Of a DNA stretch of 64,000 nucleotides, positions 8,131-26,462 are shown piece by piece. Each line of letters opens with the position of its first letter. Within the stretch, counting starts at the first letter, position 1. This DNA comes from Rufibacter latericius (lineage in GTDB: Bacteria > Bacteroidota > Bacteroidia > Cytophagales > Hymenobacteraceae), in assembly GCF_003721515.1 (NCBI RefSeq), contig NZ_RJJD01000021.1, positions 248,001 to 312,000 on the forward strand. The letters are read 5' to 3'. A program made the translations under genes and the position numbers. The notes beneath the pieces were generated by a model. It made no database searches, had not been told where the DNA came from, and saw only the letters and a list, made by a program, of their open reading frames with translations.

Positions 8131-9528
8131 ATGAGAAATCACGGAATGGGGTACGATGCATTTAACTCGTACCGCTCTGGACATGAAAACACGAGTCGTA
8201 GTGAATGGGGTAGCTTAGGCAACCGCATGGAAGGACAAGGTAATAAAGACTATCAATCTTACGGTGGCAGCATGAACCGCGGCAACACCGGTGACCGTGG
8301 CGAAAGCAATTTTACCAGCCAGGGAGGATCTGTTTATAGTGGAAATCTCGGTGACAGACAGGAAAACCACTACAGCAGCCAAGGTTCAAACTACGGCGGA
8401 AACCAATACCGCTCCGGCAACCAAAGTGACCAGAACAGAGGAAGCATGGGCGGCCAATACGGAAACAGCAGCGGCTGGAGCGGACACTCCATGCAAGGCG
8501 GCAGCGGCAATATGCAGAACAGAGGCGGTTCTTCTAACCAGGGAGGCTACGGCTCTTCCATGGGTAGTCAGAACAGCATGAACCAAGGCGGCTACGGAGC
8601 TTATGGCTCCGGCTCTAACCAGGGTTCCTCTAATTACGGTTCTTCTAATTATGGTTCCTCTAACTACGGCTCATCGGGCCAGGGTTCACGGGGCGGCTCT
8701 AATTACGGTCAAAGCGGCTCTTCTAATACCGGAGGCTCCTCTTCTAACATAGGCACTTACGGCGGCGCCCGTTCAGGCTACGCTGGATCATCTTCCGGAA
8801 ACACTTCTGGCGGCGCTCTGGACAGAGGCAATGCGTACAGCAACTACGGTAGCTCCAATGATTTCCGCGGATCAGGTTCTGGCTATGGTTCTTCGGGTTC
8901 TTCCAACTACGGGAGCCAACGCGGCGGTCAATCATCCGGATCAAGCAACTACGGCGGGTCTTTTGGCCATAGCGGGTCTTCGTATGGGGGAAATACCGAG
9001 TCTTCTTACGGGCAGTCTTCCAGAGGCGGTTCTGGATATGGAATGAGCGGCAACTCTGGAATGGGTGGCAATATGGGCTCTTCCTCCGGAATGAACCGTG
9101 GCTCCAACTCCCGGGACAATGACCGTCACTCTTCCGGCGGATCGTCTAACATGTACGGTACCAACAACCAAAGCAACTACCGCGGCGGAAGCGGCTGGAT
9201 GAGCAGCAATGACAACGATGACCAGGATCATGCACGCTTCAGCCACGGAAACGCAAACGAAAACCGTTTCTCAGATGACTACAGCCATCCGTCTAACATG
9301 AACCGCGGCAGAGACTATGACCAGGACCGTTATAGCCACAACCGCAGCCATGACAACGACAATGATGATAACCAGGGAGAAGGCTTCTTCGAAAGAATAG
9401 GTCATGGCATCAAAGACGCCTGGAACAGCATTGCCGGCGATGATGACAACAATGACAACAACCGCAGAAACTCTGCCGGTGGCCCTCCTTACAACTACGG
9501 CGCTGGCTCTAACAACGCCGGTTGGTAA
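8131..9528 (+). CDS. Gly/Ser/Asn/Tyr-rich low-complexity protein
   Basis: 465 residues, almost wholly built of Gly, Ser, Asn, Tyr, Gln and Arg, with SSNYG units in tandem (DNA 8625-8690) and recurring SGYGSSGSSNYG-type blocks. The tail turns acidic and His/Asn-rich (DNDDQDHARF, DYDQDRYSHNRSHDNDNDDN) and ends with one ordinary amphipathic helix, FFERIGHGIKDAWNSIAG. No signal peptide or membrane segment is seen. Such composition predicts disorder and, in other proteins, phase separation. The frame is real, because the composition persists over 1.4 kb with varied synonymous codons and a terminator follows. Function unknown; the C-terminal helix is the only part likely to find homologues. Confidence 0.75.
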   Translation: MRNHGMGYDAFNSYRSGHENTSRSEWGSLGNRMEGQGNKDYQSYGGSMNRGNTGDRGESNFTSQGGSVYSGNLGDRQENHYSSQGSNYGGNQYRSGNQSDQNRGSMGGQYGNSSGWSGHSMQGGSGNMQNRGGSSNQGGYGSSMGSQNSMNQGGYGAYGSGSNQGSSNYGSSNYGSSNYGSSGQGSRGGSNYGQSGSSNTGGSSSNIGTYGGARSGYAGSSSGNTSGGALDRGNAYSNYGSSNDFRGSGSGYGSSGSSNYGSQRGGQSSGSSNYGGSFGHSGSSYGGNTESSYGQSSRGGSGYGMSGNSGMGGNMGSSSGMNRGSNSRDNDRHSSGGSSNMYGTNNQSNYRGGSGWMSSNDNDDQDHARFSHGNANENRFSDDYSHPSNMNRGRDYDQDRYSHNRSHDNDNDDNQGEGFFERIGHGIKDAWNSIAGDDDNNDNNRRNSAGGPPYNYGAGSNNAGW

Positions 9529-12283: not shown

Positions 12284-13669
12284 TCAGATCTTATACACTT
12301 CGTAGAGTTTGGGAAGCGTAATGGTGACCTCGGTGCCTTGGTTTAGTTGCGAGTGAACCGCAATGGAACCCCGGTGTAGTTTGATGATCTTCTCGGCAAG
12401 GGGCAACCCAATGCCGTGGCCAGAGATATCGCGCACGCTCTCGGCCCTGAAAAACGGAACGAACACCTTGCGCACGTCTTCTTCGGCCATGCCGATGCCC
12501 TGGTCACTTACCCGTAAGTTTAAGGCTCTGGGCTGCACTTCAATGGAAGCGGTGATGGAAGGATTGCTGCCCGAGAACTTGGCGGCGTTTTCCAGTACGT
12601 TAACCGTGGCAATGAGCAAAAGGGCCTCGTTTCCTTTGATCATCAATTCGTTTTCATCTTCGGGCATGTTCGCGAAGGCCACTTCCACTTTCATATGCGG
12701 CTGCCGTTTGCGGGCCTCGGCACAGGCCTGCCACACCAGTTCATCCATCCGGAGGTCTGCCATCTGCACTTTGGAGGAATCTGTACTAGCCTGCACCATC
12801 TGTAGCAGTCCGTTGGAGAGCTGGGCCAATAAGTGCGCGTCTTCTAAAATAGATTTGAGCACCCGCTCGTATTCCTCGGGCTGGCGTTTGTTCATGAGGG
12901 CCACCTGCAACTCACCTATCATGGCGGTGAGCGGGGTACGCAGCTCATGCGAGGCGTTTGACACAAACGTTCGCTGGACCTCAAAGGCCCGTTCCAGGCG
13001 GTCTAAAAGGTTGTTGAAGGTCTTGGCAAGTTGGGCAACTTCATCCTCGCCTTCGGCTTGGCTTAAGCGGTGGTGCAGATCTGATGCCTTGATTTTCTCT
13101 ACCTCTGACACCACCTTCAGAAAAGGCCGAAGTGCGGCCCGTGAGAAGGCCATTCCGCACAGCACCACCGTAGCCAGGGCCATCACAAATCCTGTCAATA
13201 GCAGCGTGCGCAGGTGCTGCAGCTTGTTCAGGTTGTATAAGTCTATGGACGAGGCCAAAACGTAATTGTACTGCCCTCGGTGCAGATACCGAATACCCAC
13301 TACCTGTCGGTCACCCTGATCCAGGCGTACTTCCCCTTGCTGGTTCAACTGCTGCAAAACGTGGAGCGGCACGTTCATGGTATCTTCCCCCTCGCTGAAA
13401 ATTAGCTGGTGGTCCTGATTATACACTTTCACTACCTCGCGGGGAAGCATCTGGAAATAAAGCCGCTGGTCCAGGGCGTGCTGTTGCTGACTGACGGTGT
13501 CAGCGTCTAAGACGTAGTGGGCAGTGGCGTAGGCGCGGTTGAGAATACGGCCGTAGAAATCGTTTTTGCGGTACAGCGCGCTGAAGTAGTACACAGACAC
13601 CGAGAACAACAGCAAGATGCCGGTGAAAATGGCGGTGAACTGAAGCGTGAGTTTGGTTTTTATTTTCAT
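12284..13669 (-). CDS. HAMP-containing sensor histidine kinase
   Basis: 461 residues. Two membrane spans (about 10-32 and 155-175) enclose a periplasmic sensor of about 120 residues. A HAMP linker (about 178-230) follows, then the HisKA domain with phospho-acceptor H241 in SNASHELRTPLTAM, and an HATPase with N box (ATVNVLENAAKF), DQGIGMAEED and GHGIGLPLAEKI. It overlaps its response regulator by four bases (regulator stop, kinase start). The arrangement resembles CusS/ArlS-type kinases, but the sensor gives no clue to the signal and no target operon lies next to it. Confidence 0.93.
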   Translation of the reverse strand: MKIKTKLTLQFTAIFTGILLLFSVSVYYFSALYRKNDFYGRILNRAYATAHYVLDADTVSQQQHALDQRLYFQMLPREVVKVYNQDHQLIFSEGEDTMNVPLHVLQQLNQQGEVRLDQGDRQVVGIRYLHRGQYNYVLASSIDLYNLNKLQHLRTLLLTGFVMALATVVLCGMAFSRAALRPFLKVVSEVEKIKASDLHHRLSQAEGEDEVAQLAKTFNNLLDRLERAFEVQRTFVSNASHELRTPLTAMIGELQVALMNKRQPEEYERVLKSILEDAHLLAQLSNGLLQMVQASTDSSKVQMADLRMDELVWQACAEARKRQPHMKVEVAFANMPEDENELMIKGNEALLLIATVNVLENAAKFSGSNPSITASIEVQPRALNLRVSDQGIGMAEEDVRKVFVPFFRAESVRDISGHGIGLPLAEKIIKLHRGSIAVHSQLNQGTEVTITLPKLYEVYKI

Positions 13670-14349
13670 TTCTCTTCCATCTCCTTCATCACGTACCCCA
13701 TGCCTACCAGCGTATGAATCAGTTTGGGGGTAAAGTCTTTGTCTATCTTTTTGCGCAGGAAGTTGATGTACACGTCAATCACGTTACTGCCGGTATCAAA
13801 GGAAGTTTCCCAGACCTGCTCAATGATGTCTACCCGCGAGACCACCCGTTCTTTGTTGCGCAGCAGGTACTGAAGCAAGGCGAACTCCCGGGCCGTTAAC
13901 GAGATGGGTGTGCCCTTACGGAAGACGGTTTTCTTCTGCACATCCATTTCAAGGTCGGCAATTTTCAGCACCTCGGTGCCCACGCTTTCCTGGGCTCTCC
14001 GGGTCAAAGCCCTGATACGCGCCAGCAGTTCCTGAAACTCGAAGGGCTTCACCAGGTAATCATCGGCGCCGGAGTCCAGGCCCAGGATTTTGTCATCAGT
14101 GCTGCCCAGGGCCGTCAGCATGAGAATGGGCACCGTCAAACTTTGCTGCCGAATGAGCTTGCATACCTCCACCCCATTCATTCTAGGTAGGATGACGTCC
14201 AGAATCACCAGCGCGTACTCGTTTTCGGTAGCGAGCTTGGCACCATAGAAACCGTCATACGCCTGCTCCACCTCATACATCTGCTCCTCTAATCCTTTCT
14301 TGATGAAAGCACTTACTTTGGGTTCGTCTTCAATGAGCAGGATTTTCAT
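13666..14349 (-). CDS. OmpR-family response regulator
   Basis: 227 residues. The receiver domain has acidic residues at the N-terminus (IEDEP), phospho-acceptor D51 (LVILDVILPRMNG), the conserved Thr in MLTA and Lys in VKPFEF. A winged-helix Trans_reg_C domain follows (about 130-225, SLTAREFALLQYLLRNKERVVSR). It is the partner of the overlapping histidine kinase and a DNA-binding transcription factor of unknown regulon. Confidence 0.94.
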   Translation of the reverse strand: MKILLIEDEPKVSAFIKKGLEEQMYEVEQAYDGFYGAKLATENEYALVILDVILPRMNGVEVCKLIRQQSLTVPILMLTALGSTDDKILGLDSGADDYLVKPFEFQELLARIRALTRRAQESVGTEVLKIADLEMDVQKKTVFRKGTPISLTAREFALLQYLLRNKERVVSRVDIIEQVWETSFDTGSNVIDVYINFLRKKIDKDFTPKLIHTLVGMGYVMKEMEEK

Positions 14350-14542: not shown

Positions 14543-15643
14543 TCAGACGGAATGCGTGATCAAATGGGCTTTCCTTGGGGAAGAGGTTTTCCAGATGAAG
14601 CCGTCCAGAATATAATGCGTCATCTGCGGAAGCGCCAGCAAAGGAACCACCAAGGAAAGCAGCAGTTGATCGTTTACCGCCGATAATCCCTGAAAGGAGG
14701 CGAATACCTGCGGATGCTCCCGCCAAACCAAGGCATCCCAAAGTCCTTCCTCCACATAGGCCAGCACTATTAACAGACCAACAAAGAAAACCACTCCTGC
14801 CAGGCCCAGGGAGAGTCTTTGCCGCCAGGTAAGTGGCGCGTGGTTTCCGGGCGTGTTTTGAGGCTTCTTTCTGGAAATCCAGACCAAAGCCAGATAAGGA
14901 ATACCATGGGAAACCACGTTGAAAGTAGTAAAGATCAGGTCGCCGTTATAATGAACGATGCCAATGTACCAGACCAGGAAGGTTCCGGTAATGACCAGGT
15001 TCCTGGGCAGGTTCCAACGTTTGGTTTGCCAGAAAACCCAGGCTTCCTTCAGCAGGTAGCCTGCAAAAAGGCTGACGTTCAGAAAAGCAATCCAGGGGGT
15101 TACCTGAGGTAAATTTAGGGTTAGGAAATCATCTTCTATAAACCAGTTGAAATTACGGTTTCCTTCCAGGTGCCAGTACAGTAGCGGCAGCAAAGTGGCG
15201 GCATACACGCAGAATGTATCCAGTTGATGCTCCCAAGTAGGTCGCTGCTCCTTGCGGGAATACAATCGCATGAAGCCGTATTGCTGCCGCACGAAATGAT
15301 ATACCGCCAGGTAGGCCAACACGCGCCAGAAAATTCCATCGCCCAGGGAATACAGGAATATTCCGGCTAGCCATGCCCCAACCGGAGTCCAAAGCAGCAG
15401 TCTGCCTTTTTGTTTTAGGGCTTCTTTTTCAAAATAGGTTCTAAAAAGGGTGCTGTACACGTGGCCCACGTCAATCAGGAGAATCAACAGGACCCAGGCG
15501 GGTACTGGCAGGCTTTTCACGTGTTGCAGAAAGAAATCTGGGAAAAGCAGGATGGCCAGCAGACACAAAAAAGGCGGCGACAGGATAAACAGAATGTCTA
15601 CCCAAGCTGAGTGGAGCCATGGCTGTTTTTGGCGCATTTTCAC
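14543..15643 (-). CDS. Ten-helix integral membrane protein, unknown function
   Basis: 366 residues with about ten hydrophobic spans. Polar motifs inside or next to spans stand out: LIDVGHVYSTLFRTYF, YHFVRQQYGFMRLYSR, NVVSHGIPYLALVW and MTHYILDGFIWK. Several conserved-looking His residues near the membrane suggest a metal- or haem-dependent membrane enzyme, but I do not recognise a named family. The GTG at 15643 directly abuts the stop of the oxidase gene; an ATG two codons later (15637) is equally possible. It is the last gene of an operon with a flavin amine oxidase and a spermidine-synthase-like enzyme, so a role in the same envelope or polyamine-type chemistry is inferred. Confidence 0.7.
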   Translation of the reverse strand: MKMRQKQPWLHSAWVDILFILSPPFLCLLAILLFPDFFLQHVKSLPVPAWVLLILLIDVGHVYSTLFRTYFEKEALKQKGRLLLWTPVGAWLAGIFLYSLGDGIFWRVLAYLAVYHFVRQQYGFMRLYSRKEQRPTWEHQLDTFCVYAATLLPLLYWHLEGNRNFNWFIEDDFLTLNLPQVTPWIAFLNVSLFAGYLLKEAWVFWQTKRWNLPRNLVITGTFLVWYIGIVHYNGDLIFTTFNVVSHGIPYLALVWISRKKPQNTPGNHAPLTWRQRLSLGLAGVVFFVGLLIVLAYVEEGLWDALVWREHPQVFASFQGLSAVNDQLLLSLVVPLLALPQMTHYILDGFIWKTSSPRKAHLITHSV

Positions 15644-17266
15644 TTAAGTAGTTAGAATCTGTTGGGCCGCTTTGATGCCCTGGTAGAACGCCTCCTCAAA
15701 AATGGAAATCCCGCTTAGGTCTGAATGGGCGAAGTAAATTTTATCCTCAATGGATCGGGCGGCATTTTGGCGATCGGGTCCCCAGATAAACCCCGGAGTG
15801 GGTTTGATCATGCCGTGGCCCCAAACCCAGACATCCAACTGCTCCACTTCCTTCCGGATAGAAGGGTGCGCTTTCTCCAGTTCCTGCAACACTATTTCGG
15901 CCCATTCTTCCTGTTTTCTGGTGAATACCCATTGCCGGGAGGCTGGCGTAGTATCTGGAATGGGATAATAAAAGGTAATCACCTGTTTTTCTAGGAAGCC
16001 TGTCAAACTCTGCTGCTGGGCATTCACATACCCCAGAGATCGGCTGCCATAGATAACATTGTCCCAGCTTACAGGGGATCCTTTACCTGCCGGAATTTGC
16101 TTTAACGTAAGGTTTGCCACCGCCCAAGGGGCATAGGTGAAATTTCTACTGTTTACCTGTTTGGGTGCGGGTATTTTGGCCAGAAGCCTTTCCGCTACAA
16201 ACTGAGGAGTTGCGACTACGCATTTCCGCGCCATTAGCCGGGTAGCCGAATTGGTGGCTAATTCAAGGTAATCAATAATGACTTTATCATCTGCCAATTT
16301 AAGGTTATACACCAAAGAACCTGTCCTTAGATCGGGGCCTGCTTGTTCGCGCAGGCGCTCGGCCAGCCAATGGTTTCCTTGGGGCCAGGTGAGTACCCGA
16401 TGGGAATCTGAATTGGCAGCTTGGGACCGGCGGGCGGCAAAATAATGGATGGCTGCCCAGGCGGAAGTCTGTTCCAGGGTTCCGCCAAAATCATCCAGGC
16501 AGCAATATTCCACGTACCAGCGCAGATAAGGAGAAGTCAATTGTTGCTTTTGCAGCCACTCTTGCATGGTAATCTGGTCAAGGTCCCGAAACCGGGCCTC
16601 TACCGAGGAATTCTCCAGCGGGATGTCAAAGGCAAAGCGCCCATCTTCTCCCTTAGCCTGCTTCATTTCCTCCATCAGCAACAGGAACCGGTCAATCTGC
16701 TGAAGGTCTTGTAGAGGAACGCTCCAGTTAGGGACCAATCCTTCCTGCCAGTAACCGTTGATGAAAAGGCGTTCTTCCGGATCGAAACAAAGGTGATATT
16801 CATTGTACAGGGGAAGTCCCGCGGCATCGTAGCCGGTAATCACCTTCGCCTCCTCTAGAAAATCCAGCAGGTGGGTGTTGGTATTATTGGGCAGAGGAAG
16901 GTAATGCGCTCCCCATGGAAAAGCCGAATGCGCGTTCTTCCCCGACTGGCTATTGCCGCCGGTTCGGTCTTCCAGTTCCAGAAGGCAAACTCTGGCAGGG
17001 GAGTTCTTTTGCAACCATCGAGCTGCCGACAACCCTGAAACTCCACCCCCTATGACCACTATGTCTACCTCCTCCGTTTTGGTGGGCACCGTCTTTATAC
17101 CGGTTCTCAGTAAATGACCTGCTTTAAAGGATGGGCCAAACAACCGGCCTGCTGCCGGCTTCTTTTCATCTGGACCACAACCCGGCAAGCCTGTTCCCGC
17201 CAAGGCCAAACCGCCCAAAGCGAGGGCACTCTGCTTCAGGAACCGTCTTCTCTCCTCACGCTCCAT
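15644..17266 (-). CDS. Tat-exported FAD-dependent amine oxidase-like protein
   Basis: 540 residues. The N-terminus is a Tat signal (ERRRFLKQSALALGGLALAG) followed by a lipobox-like LPGC, so the protein is exported folded with FAD bound and probably lipid-anchored. The dinucleotide-binding motif VIGGGVSGLSAARWL and the glutamate-ended second strand (CLLELEDRTGGN) mark the NAD(P)-binding Rossmann/flavin amine oxidase group. The C-terminus has ISIFEEAFYQGIKAAQQI, the usual FAD-capping helix. Its ATG follows the aminopropyltransferase stop with no gap. Neighbours suggest a polyamine or modified-amine substrate in the periplasm, but this is inference. Confidence 0.8.
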   Translation of the reverse strand: MEREERRRFLKQSALALGGLALAGTGLPGCGPDEKKPAAGRLFGPSFKAGHLLRTGIKTVPTKTEEVDIVVIGGGVSGLSAARWLQKNSPARVCLLELEDRTGGNSQSGKNAHSAFPWGAHYLPLPNNTNTHLLDFLEEAKVITGYDAAGLPLYNEYHLCFDPEERLFINGYWQEGLVPNWSVPLQDLQQIDRFLLLMEEMKQAKGEDGRFAFDIPLENSSVEARFRDLDQITMQEWLQKQQLTSPYLRWYVEYCCLDDFGGTLEQTSAWAAIHYFAARRSQAANSDSHRVLTWPQGNHWLAERLREQAGPDLRTGSLVYNLKLADDKVIIDYLELATNSATRLMARKCVVATPQFVAERLLAKIPAPKQVNSRNFTYAPWAVANLTLKQIPAGKGSPVSWDNVIYGSRSLGYVNAQQQSLTGFLEKQVITFYYPIPDTTPASRQWVFTRKQEEWAEIVLQELEKAHPSIRKEVEQLDVWVWGHGMIKPTPGFIWGPDRQNAARSIEDKIYFAHSDLSGISIFEEAFYQGIKAAQQILTT

Positions 17267-18778
17267 TTAATTGATATAGTGTGCCCATTCGTCTTCGAAA
17301 TAGCGAACGAGGGCCTGGTTGTTTAACTTGTTGACCTCGGTTTGGCGGGCCGGCATATCCTTGGGAAAGATGCGCATTTGCTCAAACGTGGCTTTGTCCA
17401 GATACCGTAACTGGGGAAGGAATTGGCCGTTGACCTGCACTTGCTTATCGGGGGAGGCGAGCACAAAGCCCCAGTCCCCGAAGGAAGGCACGTGGGCGTG
17501 GTACGGGAGCGTGGCAAATCCACAACTGGTCAGGGTGTTTACCACGCACCAATACGCGTTGGGCGCCACAAAGGGAGAGGTAGCCTGAATAACCGCTGCG
17601 CCCCCGGGCGCAATAGCCTGCCGAAGGACTTTATAGAAGGTGTTGGAGTACAGCTTCCCGATGGCGTAGTTAGCTGGGTCTGGAAAATCAATCACCACGA
17701 AGTCAAACTGCTCTTTGCTGGTTTTCAGCCATTGGAAGGCATCGGTGTTGATGATTTGCACCTTTCTGGAAAGCAAAGCCTGCTGGTTCAGCTTTTTGAG
17801 GACTTCATGGCTGGCAAAAAGCTTCGTCACAGCCTTGTCCAGATCAACCAGCACTACCTTCTGGATGTTTGGATATCGGAGAATTTCCCGCACGGCCAAC
17901 CCGTCACCCCCGCCCAGCACCAGCACTTTTTTAGGGTTCGGCACCGAGTTAAGGCCCGGATGGACCAGCGCCTCGTGGTACCGGTATTCATCAGCGCTGC
18001 TGAACTGGAGGTTGCCGTTCAGAAAGAGCCGAAACTCCCGGTCGTTTTTGGTCAGGACGATTTTCTGATAAGGTGACTGCACCGAATAGATGATTTTATC
18101 GGCGTAGGAAAGGCTTTCGGTAAAGGCCAGAATGCGGTCACTCAAGACAAACCCCGCTACCAGCGATATAATAGCCGCGGCACAGGAAATCCGTAGAAAA
18201 TGAATCCATTTAACTTCTTTGCTGAAGTAGAAGCACAACCATAGGGCCACTCCGGCATTCAGCAAGCCAAAGAAAAAGGAGGTACGCAGTAAGCCCAAGT
18301 GCGGCACCAGAAGCAGGGGGAAAATCACCGAGGCCAGCAGTGCCCCAATGTAGTCAAAGGTGAACACTTTGGAGACCAGTTCCTTGAACTCAAAACGGTC
18401 CTCCAGAATGCGCATGATAAGCGGGATTTCCAGCCCCACCAAAATACCGGTGAGCGAAACCAGCATATAAAGCACGATCTGGAAGGAGGCCACCCTATCA
18501 AACAGCAGAGACAGGATGGTAGAACTGAACCCGCCTACCACCGCCACAAGCACTTCTACCTGAATAAACCAGGCAATGAGGTTCCGGTTGAAGTATCGGG
18601 AGAGATAACTCCCAATGCCCATGGAAAAGAGGTACACCCCTATGATAGTGGAGAACTGCGTGACAGAATCTCCTAGGAGATAACTGGCCAACGTACCCGC
18701 TACCAACTCATAAACCAACCCGCATGTTGCCACCACAAATACTGAGAAGAGCAGCAACACCTGTACGTTTATTCGCAT
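17267..18778 (-). CDS. Membrane-anchored polyamine aminopropyltransferase (spermidine synthase-like)
   Basis: 503 residues. The N-terminal half (about 1-210) has six or seven membrane spans. The C-terminal half is a SpeE-type Rossmann methyltransferase fold with VLVLGGGDGLAVREIL, an acidic strand end (VVLVDLDKAV) and the catalytic-loop motif DFPDPANYAIGKLYS. The classical enzyme moves an aminopropyl group from decarboxylated S-adenosylmethionine to putrescine. Membrane-fused versions next to DUF350 and DUF4178 genes recur in many bacteria and their acceptor is not known. The start is 12 bases after the DUF350 stop. No S-adenosylmethionine decarboxylase gene is in the window. Confidence 0.87.
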   Translation of the reverse strand: MRINVQVLLLFSVFVVATCGLVYELVAGTLASYLLGDSVTQFSTIIGVYLFSMGIGSYLSRYFNRNLIAWFIQVEVLVAVVGGFSSTILSLLFDRVASFQIVLYMLVSLTGILVGLEIPLIMRILEDRFEFKELVSKVFTFDYIGALLASVIFPLLLVPHLGLLRTSFFFGLLNAGVALWLCFYFSKEVKWIHFLRISCAAAIISLVAGFVLSDRILAFTESLSYADKIIYSVQSPYQKIVLTKNDREFRLFLNGNLQFSSADEYRYHEALVHPGLNSVPNPKKVLVLGGGDGLAVREILRYPNIQKVVLVDLDKAVTKLFASHEVLKKLNQQALLSRKVQIINTDAFQWLKTSKEQFDFVVIDFPDPANYAIGKLYSNTFYKVLRQAIAPGGAAVIQATSPFVAPNAYWCVVNTLTSCGFATLPYHAHVPSFGDWGFVLASPDKQVQVNGQFLPQLRYLDKATFEQMRIFPKDMPARQTEVNKLNNQALVRYFEDEWAHYIN

Positions 18779-18790
18779 GCAGCCTCCTTC

Positions 18791-19009
18791 TTACCCGTGA
18801 ACCGATGCCCCAATGATGATGGCAATGGCGATGATGAAGGCCGCAAATACGGTTGCCAACGCCATGTTCTGCTTTTCCAGAATCTCCTTCCAGAGGTTTT
18901 CAGGGGTTACTTTCTCCAGCAGCCAGAAAGTAAAAAACAAAACGGCGATTCCAATAAAGGAGTACAGCAGAGACGCGGTAACCAGTTTGTAGTTGATGAG
19001 TGATTCCAT
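18791..19009 (-). CDS. DUF350 membrane protein
   Basis: 72 residues from the ATG at 19009 (MESLINYKLVTASLLYSF). The frame is open further upstream, but that part is out of character and overlaps the small gene at 19014-19193. Two hydrophobic spans (about 10-30 and 48-70) flank an amphipathic linker EKVTPENLWKEILEKQ, with a short periplasm-like tail GASVHG. This is one DUF350 unit; E. coli YjfL carries two. DUF350 proteins recur next to spermidine-synthase-like and DUF4178 genes. Function unknown. Confidence 0.75.
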   Translation of the reverse strand: MESLINYKLVTASLLYSFIGIAVLFFTFWLLEKVTPENLWKEILEKQNMALATVFAAFIIAIAIIIGASVHG

Positions 19010-19013
19010 AGGT

Positions 19014-19193
19014 TTATTTGTGGTAAAAGGTATGTCTTCTGTATCCGCCGGAGGAACTGCGTGAACCAGAGCCTGCCTCTGATTCCTCTTTGTCATCGCC
19101 CAGGAACCGGGTGCCGGTGAGTCCGGCGTAGGCAAAGTATCCCACCACGACAACCAGGTAGCCGATGAATATCTGTTTTATGTATTTCTGCAT
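19014..19193 (-). CDS. Small 59-residue single-span membrane protein
   Basis: Start ATG at 19191-19193, stop TAA at 19014-19016. The peptide begins MQKYIKQIFIGYLVVVVGYF, a single membrane span after a short basic head. It then runs AYAGLTGTRFLGDDKEESEA and a Ser/Gly/Arg-rich tail ending RRHTFYHK. It fits exactly between the DUF4178 gene (ends 19200) and DUF350 (starts 19009), leaving 6 and 4 bases. That packing, with a span where neighbours also have spans, is the main argument that it is real. No family recognised. Confidence 0.65.
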   Translation of the reverse strand: MQKYIKQIFIGYLVVVVGYFAYAGLTGTRFLGDDKEESEAGSGSRSSSGGYRRHTFYHK

Positions 19194-19199
19194 GCGAAC

Positions 19200-19967
19200 T
19201 TACTCCTGTTCATAAGGTGAATAATCGCTGTTCATCCAGCGGCTCTTTTCAAAGTTGTAGTGCCTGATGCCCTGCACCAGCGGCACCGCCGCCAGGAGCA
19301 ACAAAGCAATCCAGAAGTTAGACCAGATAGGCACATCCTGCACCAACATCAGGTCAAAGGTTTCTGGCAGACTGGCCCCTAAGGCTAGAGCCTCGCGGGA
19401 AGGTTGCAGGTACACCTGGTAAGTTCCGCTGGGAATGGAGGAAAGGATTTGATCAGTGCCGGGGCTCCCCTCGGTCCAGCGTTCGCCGCCTTCATATCCG
19501 CTGTAAAACTCCACCCCTACCTCTACAAAGTATTCGCGGCCCGTTTTCACGTTCAACAGCGAAATTCCTGTCGCAAACCAGGTGTTGGTGACGGGTGCCC
19601 GAAGGAATACCTGCAGGTTGGTGGAGCCCAGGAAAGAAGAACCTATGTCTATGGTTGGGCCGGGTAAAGGCATTAAGGTCCCTTTTCCTGCCTCTTCGGT
19701 AAGGGTAAAGGTTTTGTCTAGCAGCACCTTGTTCTGGTGGAAAGTAGACAGCAATACCTGAATCAACAGCAGAATACCCGCGGCCCAACCCGCCATGGTG
19801 GCAATATATTTAAAAGAGAAGTTCTGCGAGAAGGTTTCTACCGCCCCTACATCTATCCGGTCGGGCATATGCCCCTGGAGCGCGAAAGCTTGTTTCACCT
19901 CCTCAGGCTCTATGTGTTCTCCCAGCATCCAACTCTGCTCGGTTTTGTTCACGGCAAGGGTGACCAT
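19200..19967 (-). CDS. C-terminal part of a DUF4178 protein (probably split by frameshift)
   Basis: 255 residues. The first part, MVTLAVNKTEQSWMLGEHIE then PEEVKQAFAL, reads as the end of a DUF4178 domain. One membrane span follows (about 55-75), then a 130-residue beta-rich extracytoplasmic region, and a second span near the C-terminus (WIALLLLAAVPLVQGI). It overlaps the preceding gene by 19 bases in another frame, at a run of seven C (plus-strand G at 19971-19977). With one more base the two frames would join as IAPPYMVTLAV. So 19200-20554 is probably one gene with a one-base loss, a sequencing error or a phase-variable tract. Confidence 0.7.
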   Translation of the reverse strand: MVTLAVNKTEQSWMLGEHIEPEEVKQAFALQGHMPDRIDVGAVETFSQNFSFKYIATMAGWAAGILLLIQVLLSTFHQNKVLLDKTFTLTEEAGKGTLMPLPGPTIDIGSSFLGSTNLQVFLRAPVTNTWFATGISLLNVKTGREYFVEVGVEFYSGYEGGERWTEGSPGTDQILSSIPSGTYQVYLQPSREALALGASLPETFDLMLVQDVPIWSNFWIALLLLAAVPLVQGIRHYNFEKSRWMNSDYSPYEQE

Positions 19968-20554
19968 GTAGGGGGGGCTATATATTCCAGATGCTGGCTG
20001 TTGTCTTTGGTGATGTGCCAGAAGAACTCTCCTCGCGCAGACAGGACCTGGGACCGGTATTTATTATAAAGTTTGAACTCCCGATCCATGTAGTACAAAG
20101 CCGGAAGCGTTCTTTTGGCCCCGATGGAGAAATCAGAAATAAACCGGAAGAAGGTCCAGTGCCCGTCATACTCAGAAAGAAAAGAATACCCGTGCACCGG
20201 ATTAAAGAGCACGTACTCCCGCCAGCGGTATTTTAGATTCTGCTCTTTATACACCAAGAACCCAACGACCATATACAACACGCCTTGGATCCTTCCCTCG
20301 CTCCCGATAGGCAACAACGGGTCTCTTTTTTCCTTATCTACCTCCTGAATGGGTACCAACTTACCGTCCTGCACCTCAGACAGATACGAACACCGCTTGC
20401 AGACCACGCTTTTGGCTTGGGCAAATGTAAAAAGGGCAATGGAATTTTTGCACTGGGGGCAAATCACCTCCAACGGCTGCGCGGGAAGGATGCTTTTCTC
20501 TTTCACCTCAAAGCCATTCATGGTGTACCCGGGTTCCTTGAAGAGACAAATCAT
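19949..20554 (-). CDS. Zn-ribbon DUF4178 protein, N-terminal part
   Basis: 201 residues, or 190 from the ATG at 20521 (MNGFEVKEKSILPAQP), which is the likelier start because it overlaps the upstream gene by only 14 bases. A zinc ribbon (ICPQCKN and VVCKRCSY) is followed by a DUF4178 domain: GSEGRIQGVLYMVVGFLVYK, WREYVLFNPVHGYSFLSEYD. The frame ends abnormally in PPTWSPLP right after the C tract, where homologues continue into the segment encoded by the next frame. Function unknown; the family recurs beside speE-like and DUF350 genes. Confidence 0.72.
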   Translation of the reverse strand: MICLFKEPGYTMNGFEVKEKSILPAQPLEVICPQCKNSIALFTFAQAKSVVCKRCSYLSEVQDGKLVPIQEVDKEKRDPLLPIGSEGRIQGVLYMVVGFLVYKEQNLKYRWREYVLFNPVHGYSFLSEYDGHWTFFRFISDFSIGAKRTLPALYYMDREFKLYNKYRSQVLSARGEFFWHITKDNSQHLEYIAPPTWSPLP

Positions 20555-21155
20555 TTAAATCAACATACCAGCCTAGGTAGGCATGAGGCGTTTGGGAGTT
20601 AATGGCATGCACAATGCCCATCTGACCATCGGTCCGGAACAATTCCAGGGAAGTAAAACCCTGTTCCTGGAGGCCCTGCTCGGGCACCTCACCTTCCCAA
20701 TAGATATTTATCACCTTGTCAATGGTTTCTAATTCCAGGGGAATATCCATCAATCTGAGGTTCTCGCCAATGGCCAACCCAAACACCGGGGCTAAACCAG
20801 TGTAGCTTGATTCCTGAAAAAGGCTGTAGTTACCCGCCCAATCTCCCAGCCACCTTGTCTTCCCATCTTTAAACAAGAGGAACCAATGGTTTCGGTAACC
20901 TTCGGTAAAGAAATACTGAATGCGGCCAATCACCTCAAAGGCTTGTTCTTTAAACACGCCCGTACTCCCCACTTGTAGGATGCTTAACACCTCTTTCATG
21001 GGAAGGGCTTTCTGGAGGGCGGCTCCCTCTACTGCGGCTTTGCGCACAATAGCCCGGCAGGCAGGACAAACCTGAGACAAAGATAACTCGGTTCTGAAGA
21101 CAAGGGGGATATTACAGGAAGGACAAGGGAAAGGGGTACCCACAGGTGCCATCAT
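20508..21155 (-). CDS. Zn-ribbon DUF4178 protein (first gene of operon)
   Basis: 215 residues. The N-terminal zinc ribbon has CPSC at 11-14 and CPAC at 34-37. The DUF4178 domain has LQVGSTGVFKEQAFEVIGRI, HWFLLFKDGKTRWLGDWAG and a C-terminal strand-rich region. No membrane span. It is a shorter, soluble paralogue of the following gene, with which it overlaps, and both keep the ribbon-plus-DUF4178 order. It leads an operon of seven or eight minus-strand genes down to 14543. I infer a cytoplasmic partner or sensor of the membrane components; no activity is known for the family. Confidence 0.78.
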   Translation of the reverse strand: MMAPVGTPFPCPSCNIPLVFRTELSLSQVCPACRAIVRKAAVEGAALQKALPMKEVLSILQVGSTGVFKEQAFEVIGRIQYFFTEGYRNHWFLLFKDGKTRWLGDWAGNYSLFQESSYTGLAPVFGLAIGENLRLMDIPLELETIDKVINIYWEGEVPEQGLQEQGFTSLELFRTDGQMGIVHAINSQTPHAYLGWYVDLNDLSLQGTRVHHEWL

Positions 21156-22551: not shown

Positions 22552-25098
22552 ATGAACTTTGAACTACAAAGTACTTTAAAACAACAAACTCATGTGGCAC
22601 TTCCTCAACGGGTAGCCCCTAAACCGCTCCTTAAGGCCGGTCTCATCTGTATTCTCCTTTCTTATGGGCTTTTCCTTTTCCAGGAATGGCGGCTTTTAGA
22701 CACCGGTACCAAGGCAGAATCCCTTTTCCTGTTCAACTATCTGCTGGCTGCGGGGTACTTTATCGCCTTGCTCATTCAAAAGCTTTTCAGGTTTAAGAGC
22801 CCGCTCCATTTTCTGGACCATCTCATGTTATTCCTGGTGCTGGGCCTGATCAGTTGTTTTTCCCTGAATAAGGAAATGCAGATTTTCCAGCCTTCGGTAG
22901 ATTGGTTCACGGGTTGGCTAATCCTGGTTTCTATGGCCATGATCGCGTACGCTTTCCGGTTCTTCCTGCCCAGGGTGCTGCAGTTGGTGATGGTGTTTCT
23001 GCTGGGCACCGGCGTGGTGCTGCTGGGGTATTTCGCCGTTTACCTGGCTCCTTTCTACTGGATGGGCCTGATAGGTGCTCTGGCCATTGGCCTAGGGCTT
23101 CACCTCTTTGTTCCCCTAAGCGCGGTGGGCTGCCTGTTGGTAGTAGCCAAGCGGATGAAACAGGAAGACCCTGCGGTGGAACGCACTTTTGTGGTGGGTA
23201 TTCTGGTGCCGATGCTGTTTACGCTGGTGTACCTGAGCCTTTGGCAAGCGGGACACGACAAAATCAACCGGATTCTGAATTCCTATCAGGTGCAGGACCA
23301 TCAGGATCTTCCACGTTGGGTGGCGCTGAGCCAGCAGGTTCCCCATACGCCCATCTTTGAACGCATCGTGCAGACCGATCTGGTGTACCAGGCAGCCTCT
23401 GAGTCTTTTGAAGCATTTGGCACGCCCGAGCGCAGGTTTGAAGAGTTGCAGCGCCATGACCCGCTGGTGGTGCTGGCCACCCGTATTTTCGGGAAAACCC
23501 AGTTGAGCCAAGAGGAAAGAGTGAAAATCATGGAGAGTAGGTTTGACGCTCGCCATGCCGCCCAGGAACGCCTTTGGTCCGGCGATCACCTCACTACCAG
23601 CAATGTCATCACGCACGCCCAGGTGTACCCCCAGTTCCGCTTCAGCTACACAGAAAAAATCCTGACGATCAGCAATCACCGGCCCAATGGATGGGAACAA
23701 GAAGAGGCCATTTACACCTTCCATTTACCGGAAGGCAGCGTAGTCACCTCCCTTTCCCTATGGATTAACGAAAAAGAAGAAAAAGGCTATCTCACCACCC
23801 AAAGCAAAGCCGAGAAAGCCTACAAAACCATTGTGGGCGTGGAGGCAAGGGATCCATCGGTGGTTCATTGGCAGGAAGGAAATACCGTGAGTGTTCGGGT
23901 ATTCCCTTGCACGCCCCAGAAAAGCCGCCAGTTCAAGATTGGCATCACTTCTCCCCTGCGCCAGGATAACGGCCAACTAGTGTACGAAAGCATTTCCTTT
24001 GACGGACCATCGGTGAAAAACGCCGCAGAAACCGCCGTCATCAGGGTAGAGGACGAAGCCTCCAAGATCCAATTACCCGATGAATTCCAGAAAACCTCCC
24101 GAAACCGGTACGAGCGCTTCGGGGACTACGAACCAGACTGGGCATTCAGGATATCGGCCCCAGCCATTAGCTCCCGAAGTTTCTCCTTTGCCGGAAGGTC
24201 TTACCAGATGCAGGCGTACACTCCTACGTTTACCTCCTTCTCCCCCACCCGCATTTACCTGGACCTGAACAAAGCCTGGACCGAAGAAGAGTTCACCACC
24301 GTTTGGGCTGAAGCAAAGAAAGCAAGCGTGTATGCTTTCTCGGGCGGAGCCATGACAAAATTGACCGAGGAGAACCGGGCAGAGATTTTCCAGGAAGGAA
24401 GCCAGTTGAACTACTCCCTGTTTCCCCTGCACCTCGTCAAAGACCCTGCTCAAGCCCTGATCATCAGTAAAGGCACGCCAAATTCCCCAAATTTAAGTGA
24501 TCTGAAAGGCAGCCGTTTCTCAGATGATTTCGCGAAAACAGCCGTAAACCACCAGCCTATCCGCTTCTTTCACTTGGGCAACACGGTTTCGCCTTATGTC
24601 AAAACTATAAAAGAGCTGAGCCTTGTGCACTATGATCAAGGATCCCTTGAGAAACTAAGCCACCTGCTCAAGAAGAACCAGTTCCTTCAAACACCTTCTG
24701 ATCCAAACTCTATCCTTCTGAGCGAAGCCGGGGTGAAGATTACGCGGTCAGGTTCCCCTGATTCTACTACCAAAGGCCCTGACCATTTAATGCGGCTGTT
24801 CGCCTACAACCACCTGTTACAGCAGATCGGGCCGAAGTATTTTGAGAAGACTTACCTGGAAGAGAACCTGATTGAAGAAGCCACGCAGGCTAACGTGGTA
24901 AGCCCGCTGTCCAGTTTGGTCGTGTTGGAGACCCAAGAAGATTATAAGCGTTTCGGGATTGGGGAAAGCAAAGATAGCCTGGGGAATGCCATTGTGAAAT
25001 CATCTGGGGCCGTTCCTGAACCACATGAATGGGCACTCATCTTCCTGGTGATTCTGGTTGTGTCCTTTTCGGTTTTGAAACCTCGTTTGTTATCATGA
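22552..25098 (+). CDS. XrtN system VIT domain protein with C-terminal exosortase sorting signal
   Basis: 848 residues. The N-terminal third has about seven membrane spans (about 28-235). A VIT domain follows (about 370-510, with FHLPEGSVVTSLSLWINEKE and VSVRVFPCTPQKSRQFKIG), then a long alpha/beta region. The last 32 residues form a PEP-CTERM-like signal: VPEP at 821-824, a hydrophobic span (WALIFLVILVVSFSVL) and basic KPR. This architecture is the dedicated partner of exosortase N, whose gene overlaps by four bases (ATGA). It is presumably cleaved and processed by XrtN. The first codons overlap an operator-like dyad, so a GTG at 22594 is a possible alternative start. Confidence 0.9.
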   Translation: MNFELQSTLKQQTHVALPQRVAPKPLLKAGLICILLSYGLFLFQEWRLLDTGTKAESLFLFNYLLAAGYFIALLIQKLFRFKSPLHFLDHLMLFLVLGLISCFSLNKEMQIFQPSVDWFTGWLILVSMAMIAYAFRFFLPRVLQLVMVFLLGTGVVLLGYFAVYLAPFYWMGLIGALAIGLGLHLFVPLSAVGCLLVVAKRMKQEDPAVERTFVVGILVPMLFTLVYLSLWQAGHDKINRILNSYQVQDHQDLPRWVALSQQVPHTPIFERIVQTDLVYQAASESFEAFGTPERRFEELQRHDPLVVLATRIFGKTQLSQEERVKIMESRFDARHAAQERLWSGDHLTTSNVITHAQVYPQFRFSYTEKILTISNHRPNGWEQEEAIYTFHLPEGSVVTSLSLWINEKEEKGYLTTQSKAEKAYKTIVGVEARDPSVVHWQEGNTVSVRVFPCTPQKSRQFKIGITSPLRQDNGQLVYESISFDGPSVKNAAETAVIRVEDEASKIQLPDEFQKTSRNRYERFGDYEPDWAFRISAPAISSRSFSFAGRSYQMQAYTPTFTSFSPTRIYLDLNKAWTEEEFTTVWAEAKKASVYAFSGGAMTKLTEENRAEIFQEGSQLNYSLFPLHLVKDPAQALIISKGTPNSPNLSDLKGSRFSDDFAKTAVNHQPIRFFHLGNTVSPYVKTIKELSLVHYDQGSLEKLSHLLKKNQFLQTPSDPNSILLSEAGVKITRSGSPDSTTKGPDHLMRLFAYNHLLQQIGPKYFEKTYLEENLIEEATQANVVSPLSSLVVLETQEDYKRFGIGESKDSLGNAIVKSSGAVPEPHEWALIFLVILVVSFSVLKPRLLS
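22555..22584. promoter_or_regulatory. Second copy of the operator-like dyad, inside the VIT gene start
   Basis: This is the 21561-21589 sequence again, with small changes (CTTTGAACTACAAAG then AAAGTACTTT). It lies three bases inside the annotated ATG. Either the operator is intragenic or the true start is further downstream. Confidence 0.55.
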
Positions 25099-26462
25099 GC
25101 GCCGCTGCTAGCTTCCCTTTTGGGGGTTCTTTCCGGAAAACAGCCTTAAAGCCGGCTTTGGCCCTGGGAATTGGGTATGTACTGGTAGCAGGATTTTTCC
25201 TGCGCCAGTACCTGCTCTGGGACCCACAGTGGATTCTGGGGTTGGCCTTATTGCCCTTTATCACCCTGCCATCAGCCAAACGAAAGCCCTCCTTTTTAGT
25301 AATGATCGGGATGATTTGTCTGCTGACTTTGGCGGCCTATTTCAAGATCACGACTATTTACTTTTTCGGCCTGCTGCTGGCCTTCTGGTTTTTCCTGCAA
25401 TCTGCGTTGGGGAGATCTGGGGGATATGCGCTCCTGATGCTGGCCGTAGCCTCGCCTATTTTCAGGTATGTCTCCGAAATCCTTAGTTTCCCTTTGCGCC
25501 TACAACTCACCAAAGCTGCGGCAGGTCTCCTAGGTTTGGGGTACACCTCAGCCGAGGCAGTCGGGAACCTCATCCTCCTGGACGGCGAGGAGTTTTCCGT
25601 TGACCCGGCCTGCGCCGGCCTCCACATGCTGTCGTTCTCGTTTATGATCGGCATATTCCTGCTGGCGCACCTGCACAGAACGCAGCAGAAGCCCTGGAAA
25701 CTCTGGATGCTCGCCGCCCTTTTAACAGGTATGCTTTTCCTGAACCTGGTATCAAACCTCCTCCGGATTCTAGTGCTGGTTTTACTTAGGATCGGTCCGG
25801 AGGATTTTATGCACGATGCCGTTGGGCTGGTCTGCCTCGTGCTGTATGCCCTGGTTCCGTTTTTCTTCCTGGCCAGGTACATCCATTCCCGAATACGTTT
25901 AAAGGCTGATTTCACCAAAGAAGCCTTAAATCAGAAAAGCCTTTCTAAAGGAACATTAACTCTCCACCTGATGGTCCTTGTCTGCCTTACCGGCGTGGGA
26001 TATCTGGTCCAAACCGACCGGAAAGCCCCTCAACTAGCCACCGAGTTGACCCTACCGGGGTTTGAGAAAACGGTTCTTCTGGATGGGGTTACCAAACTTA
26101 CTAATGTGCAGGCCTTGGTTTACATGAAACCCGTAAGGGCTTTCTACTCTACGGAGCACCATCCCATGATTTGCTGGGAAGGAAGCGGGTATCGGTTCAA
26201 GAATGTGGCTGAGACGGAGATTGAGGGAAAAGTAATTTTCACCGGAATTCTGGAGAAAGGCAAAGACCAACTGCACACCGCCTGGTGGATGGACAATGGG
26301 CAACATCAAACCATTTCGCAAACAGATTGGCGGTGGCGCATGGCCCAAGGAGAACCGGCTTTCCATTTGGTAAATGTCACTTCTTCCACAGAGGCCATTC
26401 TTCTATCTCAGGTCAAGACTTTACTCAACACTTCGACAAAACAGGTTAGCCTAGGCAGGTAA
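25095..26462 (+). CDS. xrtN: Exosortase N
   Basis: 455 residues from the ATG at 25095, which overlaps the VIT-gene stop; the frame is open 66 bases further upstream, inside the VIT gene. About eight to ten membrane spans. The exosortase catalytic residues are present: C173 in DPACAGLHML, R224 in NLLRILVLV and H240 in DFMHDAVGL. The C-terminal 130 residues, after the last span, form an EpsI-like periplasmic domain (HHPMICWEGSGYRF). The enzyme is a membrane cysteine transpeptidase that recognises PEP-CTERM-type tails; here the likely substrate is the adjacent VIT protein. A strong hairpin terminator follows. Confidence 0.92.
   Translation: MSAAASFPFGGSFRKTALKPALALGIGYVLVAGFFLRQYLLWDPQWILGLALLPFITLPSAKRKPSFLVMIGMICLLTLAAYFKITTIYFFGLLLAFWFFLQSALGRSGGYALLMLAVASPIFRYVSEILSFPLRLQLTKAAAGLLGLGYTSAEAVGNLILLDGEEFSVDPACAGLHMLSFSFMIGIFLLAHLHRTQQKPWKLWMLAALLTGMLFLNLVSNLLRILVLVLLRIGPEDFMHDAVGLVCLVLYALVPFFFLARYIHSRIRLKADFTKEALNQKSLSKGTLTLHLMVLVCLTGVGYLVQTDRKAPQLATELTLPGFEKTVLLDGVTKLTNVQALVYMKPVRAFYSTEHHPMICWEGSGYRFKNVAETEIEGKVIFTGILEKGKDQLHTAWWMDNGQHQTISQTDWRWRMAQGEPAFHLVNVTSSTEAILLSQVKTLLNTSTKQVSLGR

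Follow-up and report, generated by a model that had tools for sequence, protein, structure and literature searches.

The window analysed here is a 64,000-nt stretch of the Rufibacter latericius genome (contig NZ_RJJD01000021.1, positions 248,001 to 312,000). Its minus strand carries an operon of packed genes, named A–H in the order of transcription, that combines a membrane-fused aminopropyltransferase of the SpeE family (F) with a small membrane peptide (D), an exported amine oxidase (G), a polytopic membrane protein (H), and proteins of the DUF4178 and DUF350 types (A, BC, and E). The operon belongs to a known but unexplained class. What is new, as far as sequence comparison goes, is that D varies everywhere but at its end, which stays His-Lys (HK). 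We propose that F aminopropylates the C-terminal lysine of D and that exported G then oxidises the new amine, a predicted chemistry to which we give even chances. Our confidence that the operon is real and strongly conserved, and that the tail is conserved with it, is high. The proposal starts from the operon, its conservation, the invariant HK, the intact catalytic residues, and the presence of SpeD in every F-bearing genome of an evenly drawn sample.

Conservation of the gene set was assessed in three collections: a family sample of 59 related genomes, including that of the window; the best 80 loci found when GTDB genomes were scanned with an alignment of H, which gave at least 565 confirmed relatives among at least 589 pattern matches; and 296 evenly drawn genomes of Bacteroidota (in the GTDB sense). 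The 80 loci are the closest H relatives and hence biased towards the same cassette type, and the 296-genome sample is less biased. Sampled genomes bear G-numbers (G000 being the window genome), and fetched loci bear L-numbers. Full-length F, G, and H adjoin in the order BC-D-E-F-G-H in all 12 family-sample genomes with full-length F and G, and A is present in 9 of these 12 cassettes. F relatives with 36–49% identity lack a G-H pair directly behind them in G037, G039, G040, G049, G051, and G056; G018 and G051 have H but no cassette (in G051, divergent relatives of F and G are on a different contig), as does G056 with a distant H; and only fragments of G are left at the syntenic place in G009. 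Among the best 80 H loci, G adjoins H in every case, and F and BC accompany it in 78 each; the two loci lacking F (L142 and L170) are contig ends. In seven loci (L106, L144, L157, L159, L160, L168, and L175) H was placed by a tblastn match right after G and not by the choice of open reading frame (ORF), the L132 oxidase reads as two ORFs, and that of L170 is cut. The hosts include Pedobacter, Mucilaginibacter, Chitinophaga, Dyadobacter, Spirosoma, and Hymenobacter, along with single metagenome-assembled genomes (MAGs) labelled Cyanobacteria, FCPU426, and Verrucomicrobia. In the evenly drawn sample an H-family match was found in 20 of 296 genomes and was strong in 9; all 9 carry BC-D-E-F-G-H, and SpeD heads the operon in 8 of them but not in the window genome. 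The expectation of a first-pass annotation of this DNA that the oxidase and ten-helix genes are kept beside DUF4178, DUF350, and speE is thus borne out.

At a distance of up to six genes from the cassette, no cluster of flanking homologues is shared by more than 9 of the 80 loci, the largest being, by eye, response regulators; the unit therefore has sharp limits, and a wider partner gene was rejected on the same count. The count also bears on the idea that the set is a membrane-stress scaffold of the PspA/flotillin type, tuned by its enzymes via polyamine levels and using HK as a contact site only. Sets of DUF4178, DUF350, and SpeE do sit with PspA genes in other bacteria, according to excerpts of PMC11237479, and an SPFH gene accompanies the Novosphingobium set. 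Given that none of the flanking clusters exceeds 9 of 80 loci (a count made without a search for PspA or SPFH by name), we regard such a scaffold as very improbable.

D is a peptide of approximately 44–80 aa (its starts are uncertain) with one hydrophobic segment, a Gly/Ser-rich tail, and fast sequence drift. Both BC and F are present in 78 loci of the 80-locus set, and in 77 of these the interval between them contains a D-type ORF ending in HK. The exception, L113, carries the tail as a C-terminal extension of BC that ends in FHHK. Overall, HK terminates 90 of 90 separate D loci, a count biased by the choice of D ORFs by their HK end within the BC-F interval. These loci come from the 80-locus set, seven phylum-sample loci, and the 12 family cassettes (96 rows minus 6 for the loci fetched twice, L076–L079, L083, and L190; L142, L170, and L113 also stand outside the 90). 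Among 34 representatives with less than 50% identity, HK is present in 100%, Tyr at position −3 in 65%, and Phe at position −4 in 59%, and no single residue exceeds 29% at any of the positions −5 to −30, the corresponding limit for the 90 loci being 36%. The His codon is CAT in 52 and CAC in 44 of the 96 rows, the Lys codon is AAA in 89 and AAG in 7, and all three stop codons are used. Because the DUF350 gene has its first in-frame ATG anywhere from −4 to 181 bases after the D stop (66 loci measured), it seems unlikely that HK is conserved as a ribosome site. As a control, the commonest last dipeptide occurs in at most 16 of 78 sequences for BC, F, G, and H, but E ends in HG in 48 of 68. An HK end was also found in 10 of 1130 chosen ORFs unassigned to the cassette, at least several of which (such as those in L118, L121, L124, and L133) are D peptides missed by the profile. 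The N side of D is the more positive one in 75 of the 96 rows and equal in 8, a charge pattern that would direct the tail outwards.

Lys-ending tails extend beyond the cassette. Twelve sampled F genomes without a strong H match, the F clusters of which had not been used to find the HK rule, were examined together with family-sample and plasmid sets. HK-type ends are present in G295 (YYHK), G089 (locus L246, a BC-D fusion ending in GSHK), G372 (HHK), and G340 (QHK). In G152, G172, G268, G173, and G092, tallied as loci L252–L256, a protein of 240–254 aa with a lipoprotein-like N-terminus (by eye) has an S/R/G-rich stretch followed by GK; these proteins were chosen by eye among K-ending neighbouring ORFs. 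Four of the five genomes have a DUF350 protein of 281–299 aa, and none was detected in G173. A Lys-ending tail was found in 18 of the 21 F genomes of the 296-genome sample. In the family sample, tails end in RYGK (G040) and RGGK (G049). Plasmid sets (13 records matched, 8 examined) yielded ends in SHK (Novosphingobium ES2-1), THK (N. resinovorum), HGK (Gemmatirosa), SGK (Ensifer), and RVK (Tritonibacter), as well as a 536-aa ORF ending in SGK on an Alteromonas plasmid (the 536-aa ORF of L221 ends in GK). Five loci (L089, L090, L091, L095, and L098) with an F-like protein of 36–41% identity, no DUF350 match, and no evident tail were kept outside these tallies. As a whole, related SpeE clusters without the oxidase have mainly lipoproteins or peptides with a terminal Lys, which is usually part of Gly-Lys, and a few have no such tail.

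The oxidase is present in 11 of the 13 sampled F genomes with HK tails and in none of the 8 others; for the most part, the terminal Lys tracks F and the His the oxidase branch. A stricter rule, that His always needs the oxidase, was ruled out by the HK tails of G372 and G340. The same association could mean that G alone acts on D, forming on its C-terminal lysine a lysyl-oxidase-like aldehyde for crosslinks with His or with polymers nearby, and that F has some other product; the leader of the oxidase and the charge pattern of D put both on the extracytoplasmic side. However, Lys-ending tails persist in the F clusters of oxidase-free genomes (L252–L256; L247 and L248), and the Lys therefore follows F rather than G, so that we consider action of G alone unlikely. 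A different acceptor is conceivable as well: F might aminopropylate a lipid, a headgroup, or a wall amine, with D as a small subunit or sensor whose HK binds the product or a metal. Four products of the set (F, DUF350, D, and H) are indeed membrane proteins, and excerpts of PMC11237479 describe a coupling to envelope-stress genes that recurs in other phyla, but this reading leaves unexplained a Lys at the extreme C-terminus across lipoprotein-like proteins, transmembrane (TM) peptides, and BC fusions; we rate it as rather unlikely. Among the acceptors suggested in the first-pass annotation (a lipid, peptide, or wall component), the evidence points to the peptide, namely D with its invariant His-Lys.

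F itself has the sequence features of an aminopropyltransferase. NCBIfam names it polyamine aminopropyltransferase PRK03612 (675 bits over residues 5–501), its best PDB sequence match is thermospermine synthase, and approximately seven hydrophobic segments precede residue 215 (by hydropathy). The motif for decarboxylated S-adenosylmethionine (dcAdoMet) and the catalytic Asp pair were assigned by alignment to solved enzymes; GGGDG (G289–G293), D312, D314, D346, D364, and D367 are invariant in 36 of 36 aligned sequences, and so are Q258, D263, E264, H268, and E269. The NCBIfam name and the PDB match would fit ordinary polyamine metabolism, with F making spermidine or a relative from a free amine and G degrading it in the periplasm. 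Yet the window genome and seven other cassette genomes already possess a SpeD-SpeE fusion without the membrane part, and Li et al. in 2019 reportedly found that membrane fusions of this kind fail to substitute for SpeE in E. coli and that spermidine is absent. An ordinary polyamine pathway is, in our judgement, decidedly unlikely.

The supply of dcAdoMet is reflected in the distribution of SpeD. A SpeD of approximately 117 aa lies within 700 bases upstream of BC (or of A, in L137 and L163) in 66 of the 80 loci. The 14 loci without SpeD at the operon head comprise 8 from Rufibacter, Sabulibacter, Pontibacter, Adhaeribacter, and Botryobacter and 6 others, i.e., the contig ends L134, L142, L165, and L170, as well as L164 and L168 (SpeD downstream). 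Among the family cassettes, all 8 without an operon SpeD have a SpeD-SpeE fusion elsewhere (frames of 429–476 aa, matched by both searches), and in all 4 that lack the fusion SpeD lies inside the cassette or adjoins it, a mutual exclusion with a Fisher p of 0.002 for relatives that are not independent. The only SpeD of the window genome is such a fusion (a 432-aa open frame, G000:C1:71834-72943), and L103, L105, and L106, which lack an operon SpeD, have one SpeD each in frames of 443–479 aa, fusion-sized by length only. Exactly one SpeD was found in 27 of the 29 genomes searched via loci, and none in L134 and L165, which are cassettes at MAG contig ends. F is present in 21 of the 296 evenly drawn genomes (E up to 1e-60), and all 21 have exactly one SpeD.

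Three operon SpeD copies scanned match Pfam AdoMet_dc with 72.9–93.4 bits, and the ESH and HTWPE residues are kept in 67 aligned copies, save for 3 T-to-S changes. The catalytic Cys (C83 of T. maritima SpeD), given as essential in excerpts of PMC10407285, is retained in the downstream SpeD of L168, in the six SpeD-SpeE fusions examined, and in the SpeD beside the G027 cassette. The operon-head copies, all 66 of which have Ser at this position, possibly form a new functional class of SpeD; since canonical SpeD evidently can stand in for them, they probably still make dcAdoMet.

The oxidase is probably a lipoprotein of the twin-arginine translocation (Tat) type and a flavin adenine dinucleotide (FAD) amine oxidase, the leader in the window reading RRRFLK...LPGC. 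By pattern matching, without a signal predictor, the strict RR pattern was found in 73 and the strict lipobox pattern in 36 of 93 oxidase ORFs longer than 450 aa (duplicates and two outside relatives included), many of the others being near-misses by eye. G shares the FAD amine oxidase family with MAO, LSD1, and SpdH, to which it has weak sequence matches, but it has no full-length relative with a known substrate. Its PDB matches to these enzymes cover the FAD-binding region only (residues ~56–124), and therefore the substrate of G cannot be read from its sequence. The first-pass annotation had suggested that an aminopropyl group is transferred at the membrane and that the product, something other than free spermidine, is then oxidised in the periplasm. 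This scheme gains weight from SpeD at the head of 66 of 80 loci, from the twin-arginine, cysteine-containing leader that most oxidase copies have, and from published arguments that sets of SpeD and SpeE fusions use a non-polyamine acceptor.

The first-pass annotation had also described seven or eight packed minus-strand genes with small gaps or overlaps. All the genes named there are present at this spacing as eight ORFs that span positions 21155 to 14543 (Table 1), and the count of seven stands: B and C are one gene, so that the operon consists of A, BC, D, E, F, G, and H. In all 11 cassette relatives fetched, BC is a single ORF of 434–489 aa. Compared with five aligned relatives, the window copy is one base short in a C run at ~19970–19977, a difference that splits B from C and is either a real frameshift or an assembly error. 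The true start of B is probably at 20521. A homologue of A in Novosphingobium carries a DUF4178 annotation, and the ~625-aa BC ORFs of many Chitinophagaceae and Dyadobacter suggest an A-BC fusion, judged on length only. An AlphaFold model of BC from L100 (predicted local distance difference test, pLDDT, 87.4) is composed of beta domains and two long helices (237–260 and 400–429), and a fold search with BC gave, among the 50 matches listed, diffuse beta-protein matches only (query TM-scores of 0.09–0.20). C, D, and H have no match in PHROG, and no ATP-grasp ligase of the YgiC/YjfC type was matched by any of the eight window ORFs in Pfam or among the NCBIfam matches listed. In L117 (Solitalea agri), BC-D-E apparently occurs twice in tandem ahead of F, G, and H.

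Table 1. Features of the operon in the window (positions in the 64,000-nt stretch).
Feature	Description	Position	Strand	Evidence
A	215-aa Zn-ribbon/DUF4178-like protein; first gene of the operon in Rufibacter	20508..21155	-	Pfam DUF4178, 15.8 bits, below cut-off
B	N-terminal part of BC; Zn ribbon and DUF4178	19949..20554	-	Pfam DUF4178, 45.8 bits (cut-off 25)
C	C-terminal part of BC; TM, beta-rich domain, TM	19200..19967	-	No Pfam match
D	59-aa membrane peptide; one hydrophobic segment, Gly/Ser-rich tail	19014..19193	-	ORF; no Pfam match
His-Lys codons	C-terminal end of D; candidate aminopropyl acceptor	19017..19022	-	HK in 90/90 separate D loci
E	72-aa DUF350 protein; single two-TM unit	18791..19009	-	Pfam DUF350, 49.9 bits
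F	Membrane-fused aminopropyltransferase; ~seven hydrophobic segments and SpeE domain	17267..18778	-	Pfam Spermine_synth, 124.7 bits
G	FAD amine oxidase, probably exported; twin-arginine leader and lipobox-like cysteine	15644..17266	-	Pfam Amino_oxidase, 65.5 bits
H	Polytopic membrane protein; invariant His/Asp/Glu residues	14543..15643	-	One chance-level Pfam match

An AlphaFold model of H (pLDDT 87.1; predicted template modelling score, pTM, 0.85; 63 sequences) places D58, H61, H116, H246, E298, E299, D303, H343, and D347 on helices, and all these residues are invariant in 63 of 63 sequences. The structure-based search proposed for the ten-helix protein was run, and no PDB fold stands out: the best Foldseek E is 0.73, and the best Z is 7.1 (root-mean-square deviation of 4.8 over 172 residues, to a microbial rhodopsin), which is within the tool's range for unrelated helical bundles. 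No Pfam family was matched by H, and a PDB sequence search with the H profile gave no match. Brp/Blh carotene dioxygenases (PF15461) are likewise polytopic with invariant His on several helices, a motif likeness noted by eye, but profile comparison found no homology (hhalign probability of 0.7% against 8 members) and H as a carotene-dioxygenase-like protein was rejected, as was the same reading of the distant H set. These distant relatives (99.8% profile probability) have motifs such as D..H...T..RT, H..RQ..G, H..Y, and HY..D..IW, and their neighbours are unrelated genes that provide no functional clue (C25 peptidase and PorV, SDF symporter, glutamine-amidotransferase, GTPase, 2-hydroxyacid dehydrogenase, and MgtC/DUF4010 genes). 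In L203 (and, by ORF sizes, L202), the distant H lies beside a C25 peptidase, a PorV-like gene (type IX secretion), and an SDF symporter. That H is a membrane metalloenzyme is a guess, no more. Two oxidase-bearing clusters lack H (G295 and G089, loci L245 and L246, with no H match genome-wide), and no H lies beside the Novosphingobium oxidase set; H is therefore not essential to the gene set, and the ten-helix protein included in the first-pass scheme is conserved beside the oxidase but dispensable.

Several genes surrounding the operon recur in its relatives. Directly downstream of H (window positions 12284–14349) are a response-regulator-like gene and a 461-aa histidine-kinase-like gene (by eye), a pair that keeps its place after H in Rufibacter-like cassettes; in G009 the 461-aa ORF persists with only oxidase fragments left, as if the cassette was lost there. 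Upstream (22552–26462) lies a divergent pair, an 848-aa protein with a VPEP...TM tail and a 477-aa polytopic protein, which may be a PEP-CTERM-type protein and an exosortase, judging by their resemblance to these. ORFs of these two sizes also occur upstream of the cassette in several Rufibacter-like genomes. A 465-aa protein (8131–9528) composed mostly of Gly, Ser, Asn, Tyr, and Gln repeats has homologues near the cassette in four relatives.

The mechanism that we propose treats the operon as what may be a self-contained membrane module modifying a ribosomally made, membrane-anchored peptide. SpeD would make dcAdoMet, by means of the operon copy in most relatives and, in Rufibacter, probably by the separate SpeD-SpeE fusion. 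F would then move the aminopropyl group onto the side chain of the C-terminal lysine of D, which presents an aminobutyl arm such as ordinary SpeE recognises in putrescine and which, as the last residue, could enter the narrow active-site tunnel; the product would resemble a glycyl-spermidine tail, plus one carbon and a carboxylate. Exported G would oxidise the new amine, the preceding histidine being needed for the product or its use, BC and DUF350 would serve as a scaffold, and H may be a membrane metalloenzyme working on the same tail. The purpose would be a charged or reactive surface tail. The reaction, its site, the order of the steps, the role of H, and this purpose are what we infer. 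In a broader form, membrane SpeE fusions may act outside the cytoplasm and aminopropylate the C-terminal Lys of dedicated tails that are membrane-anchored or belong to lipoproteins. This would be a new type of post-translational modification, to which Bacteroidota would add the oxidase and H and so turn His-Lys into an oxidised, possibly crosslinking or metal-binding terminus; we hold this general version tentatively, at somewhat less than even chances.

Several points weigh against aminopropylation of D. The weakest link is topology: simple charge rules over the seven segments put the catalytic domain of F outside, as they do the tail of D, and the tails of lipoproteins are by their nature outside as well. 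An exported oxidase fits this picture, but dcAdoMet is cytosolic and would have to cross the membrane, perhaps via the transporter-like part of F. The Ser of the operon-head SpeD copies (66/66) leaves their product uncertain, and two F-bearing genomes, G040 (where F gives two separate matches) and G039, have no SpeD. By eye, no Lys-ending tail is found near F in 3 of the 21 sampled F genomes (G243, G150, and G314); the same holds for G039 and for two Burkholderia plasmid sets with the oxidase. G372 and G340 combine an HK tail with the lack of such an oxidase genome-wide, and the F match of G340 has an in-frame stop. The choice of D by its HK end, and of the GK-ending proteins by eye, favours the tallies. 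Finally, the conserved end of D could serve binding or sorting instead of the predicted modification.

Comparison with known systems places the operon next to clusters of SpeD, membrane SpeE, and DUF350. Li et al. in 2019 reportedly described SpeD with MFS-SpdSyn fusions (MFS, major facilitator superfamily) and DUF350, and argued for a non-polyamine acceptor. The window operon has in common with such clusters the membrane SpeE family, DUF350, DUF4178, SpeD, and an inferred non-putrescine acceptor, and it adds the exported oxidase, H, and the His-Lys peptide. An operon of SpeE-TM, DUF350, a lipoprotein, and DUF4178 in a PspA context appears in excerpts of PMC11237479 (Ravi et al., 2024), which suggest polyamine sensing or aminopropylation of other substrates and name neither a Lys-ending tail nor an acceptor. 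Among the literature matches listed, no title or abstract names a Lys-ending substrate of a membrane SpeE or a link to an amine oxidase or H, subscription journals being mostly outside the scope of the search.

A second relative is found in E. coli, where ygiC and yjfC are annotated as peptide-spermidine ligases (RefSeq names) and each adjoin a gene for a DUF1190 protein, YgiB ending in SSRSMGG and YjfM in SARGHWGG; yjfL encodes a DUF350 protein. We think of the YgiB and YjfM tails as likely substrates of the ligases. This system and the operon are alike in the DUF350 partner (the yjf set), the Ser/Arg/Gly-tailed carrier, and polyamine chemistry on peptides. They differ in that YgiC and YjfC are ATP-grasp amide ligases using spermidine, whereas the operon has a dcAdoMet-dependent aminopropyltransferase and a Lys end, and would reach a similar tail by N-alkylation. 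By analogy, we take this as a sign that DUF350 systems may put polyamine tails on surface proteins. The hypusine pathway (deoxyhypusine synthase, DOHH, and eIF5A) also equips a lysine with an arm derived from a polyamine, on which an oxidising enzyme then acts, but there the enzymes are unrelated, the aminobutyl group comes from spermidine, and the lysine is internal in a cytosolic protein.

D is thus a concrete candidate for the missing target of the widespread membrane "spermidine synthases," the acceptor of which is said to have been an open question since non-polyamine enzymes were reported in 2019. If the proposal is true, it would amount to a hypusine-like modification in the bacterial envelope and would give roles to DUF350, DUF4178, and the H family. 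It would also tie the operon to the peptide-spermidine ligases of E. coli, and DUF350 systems would then serve in general to provide surface proteins with "polyamine tails," for which two unrelated chemistries would exist.

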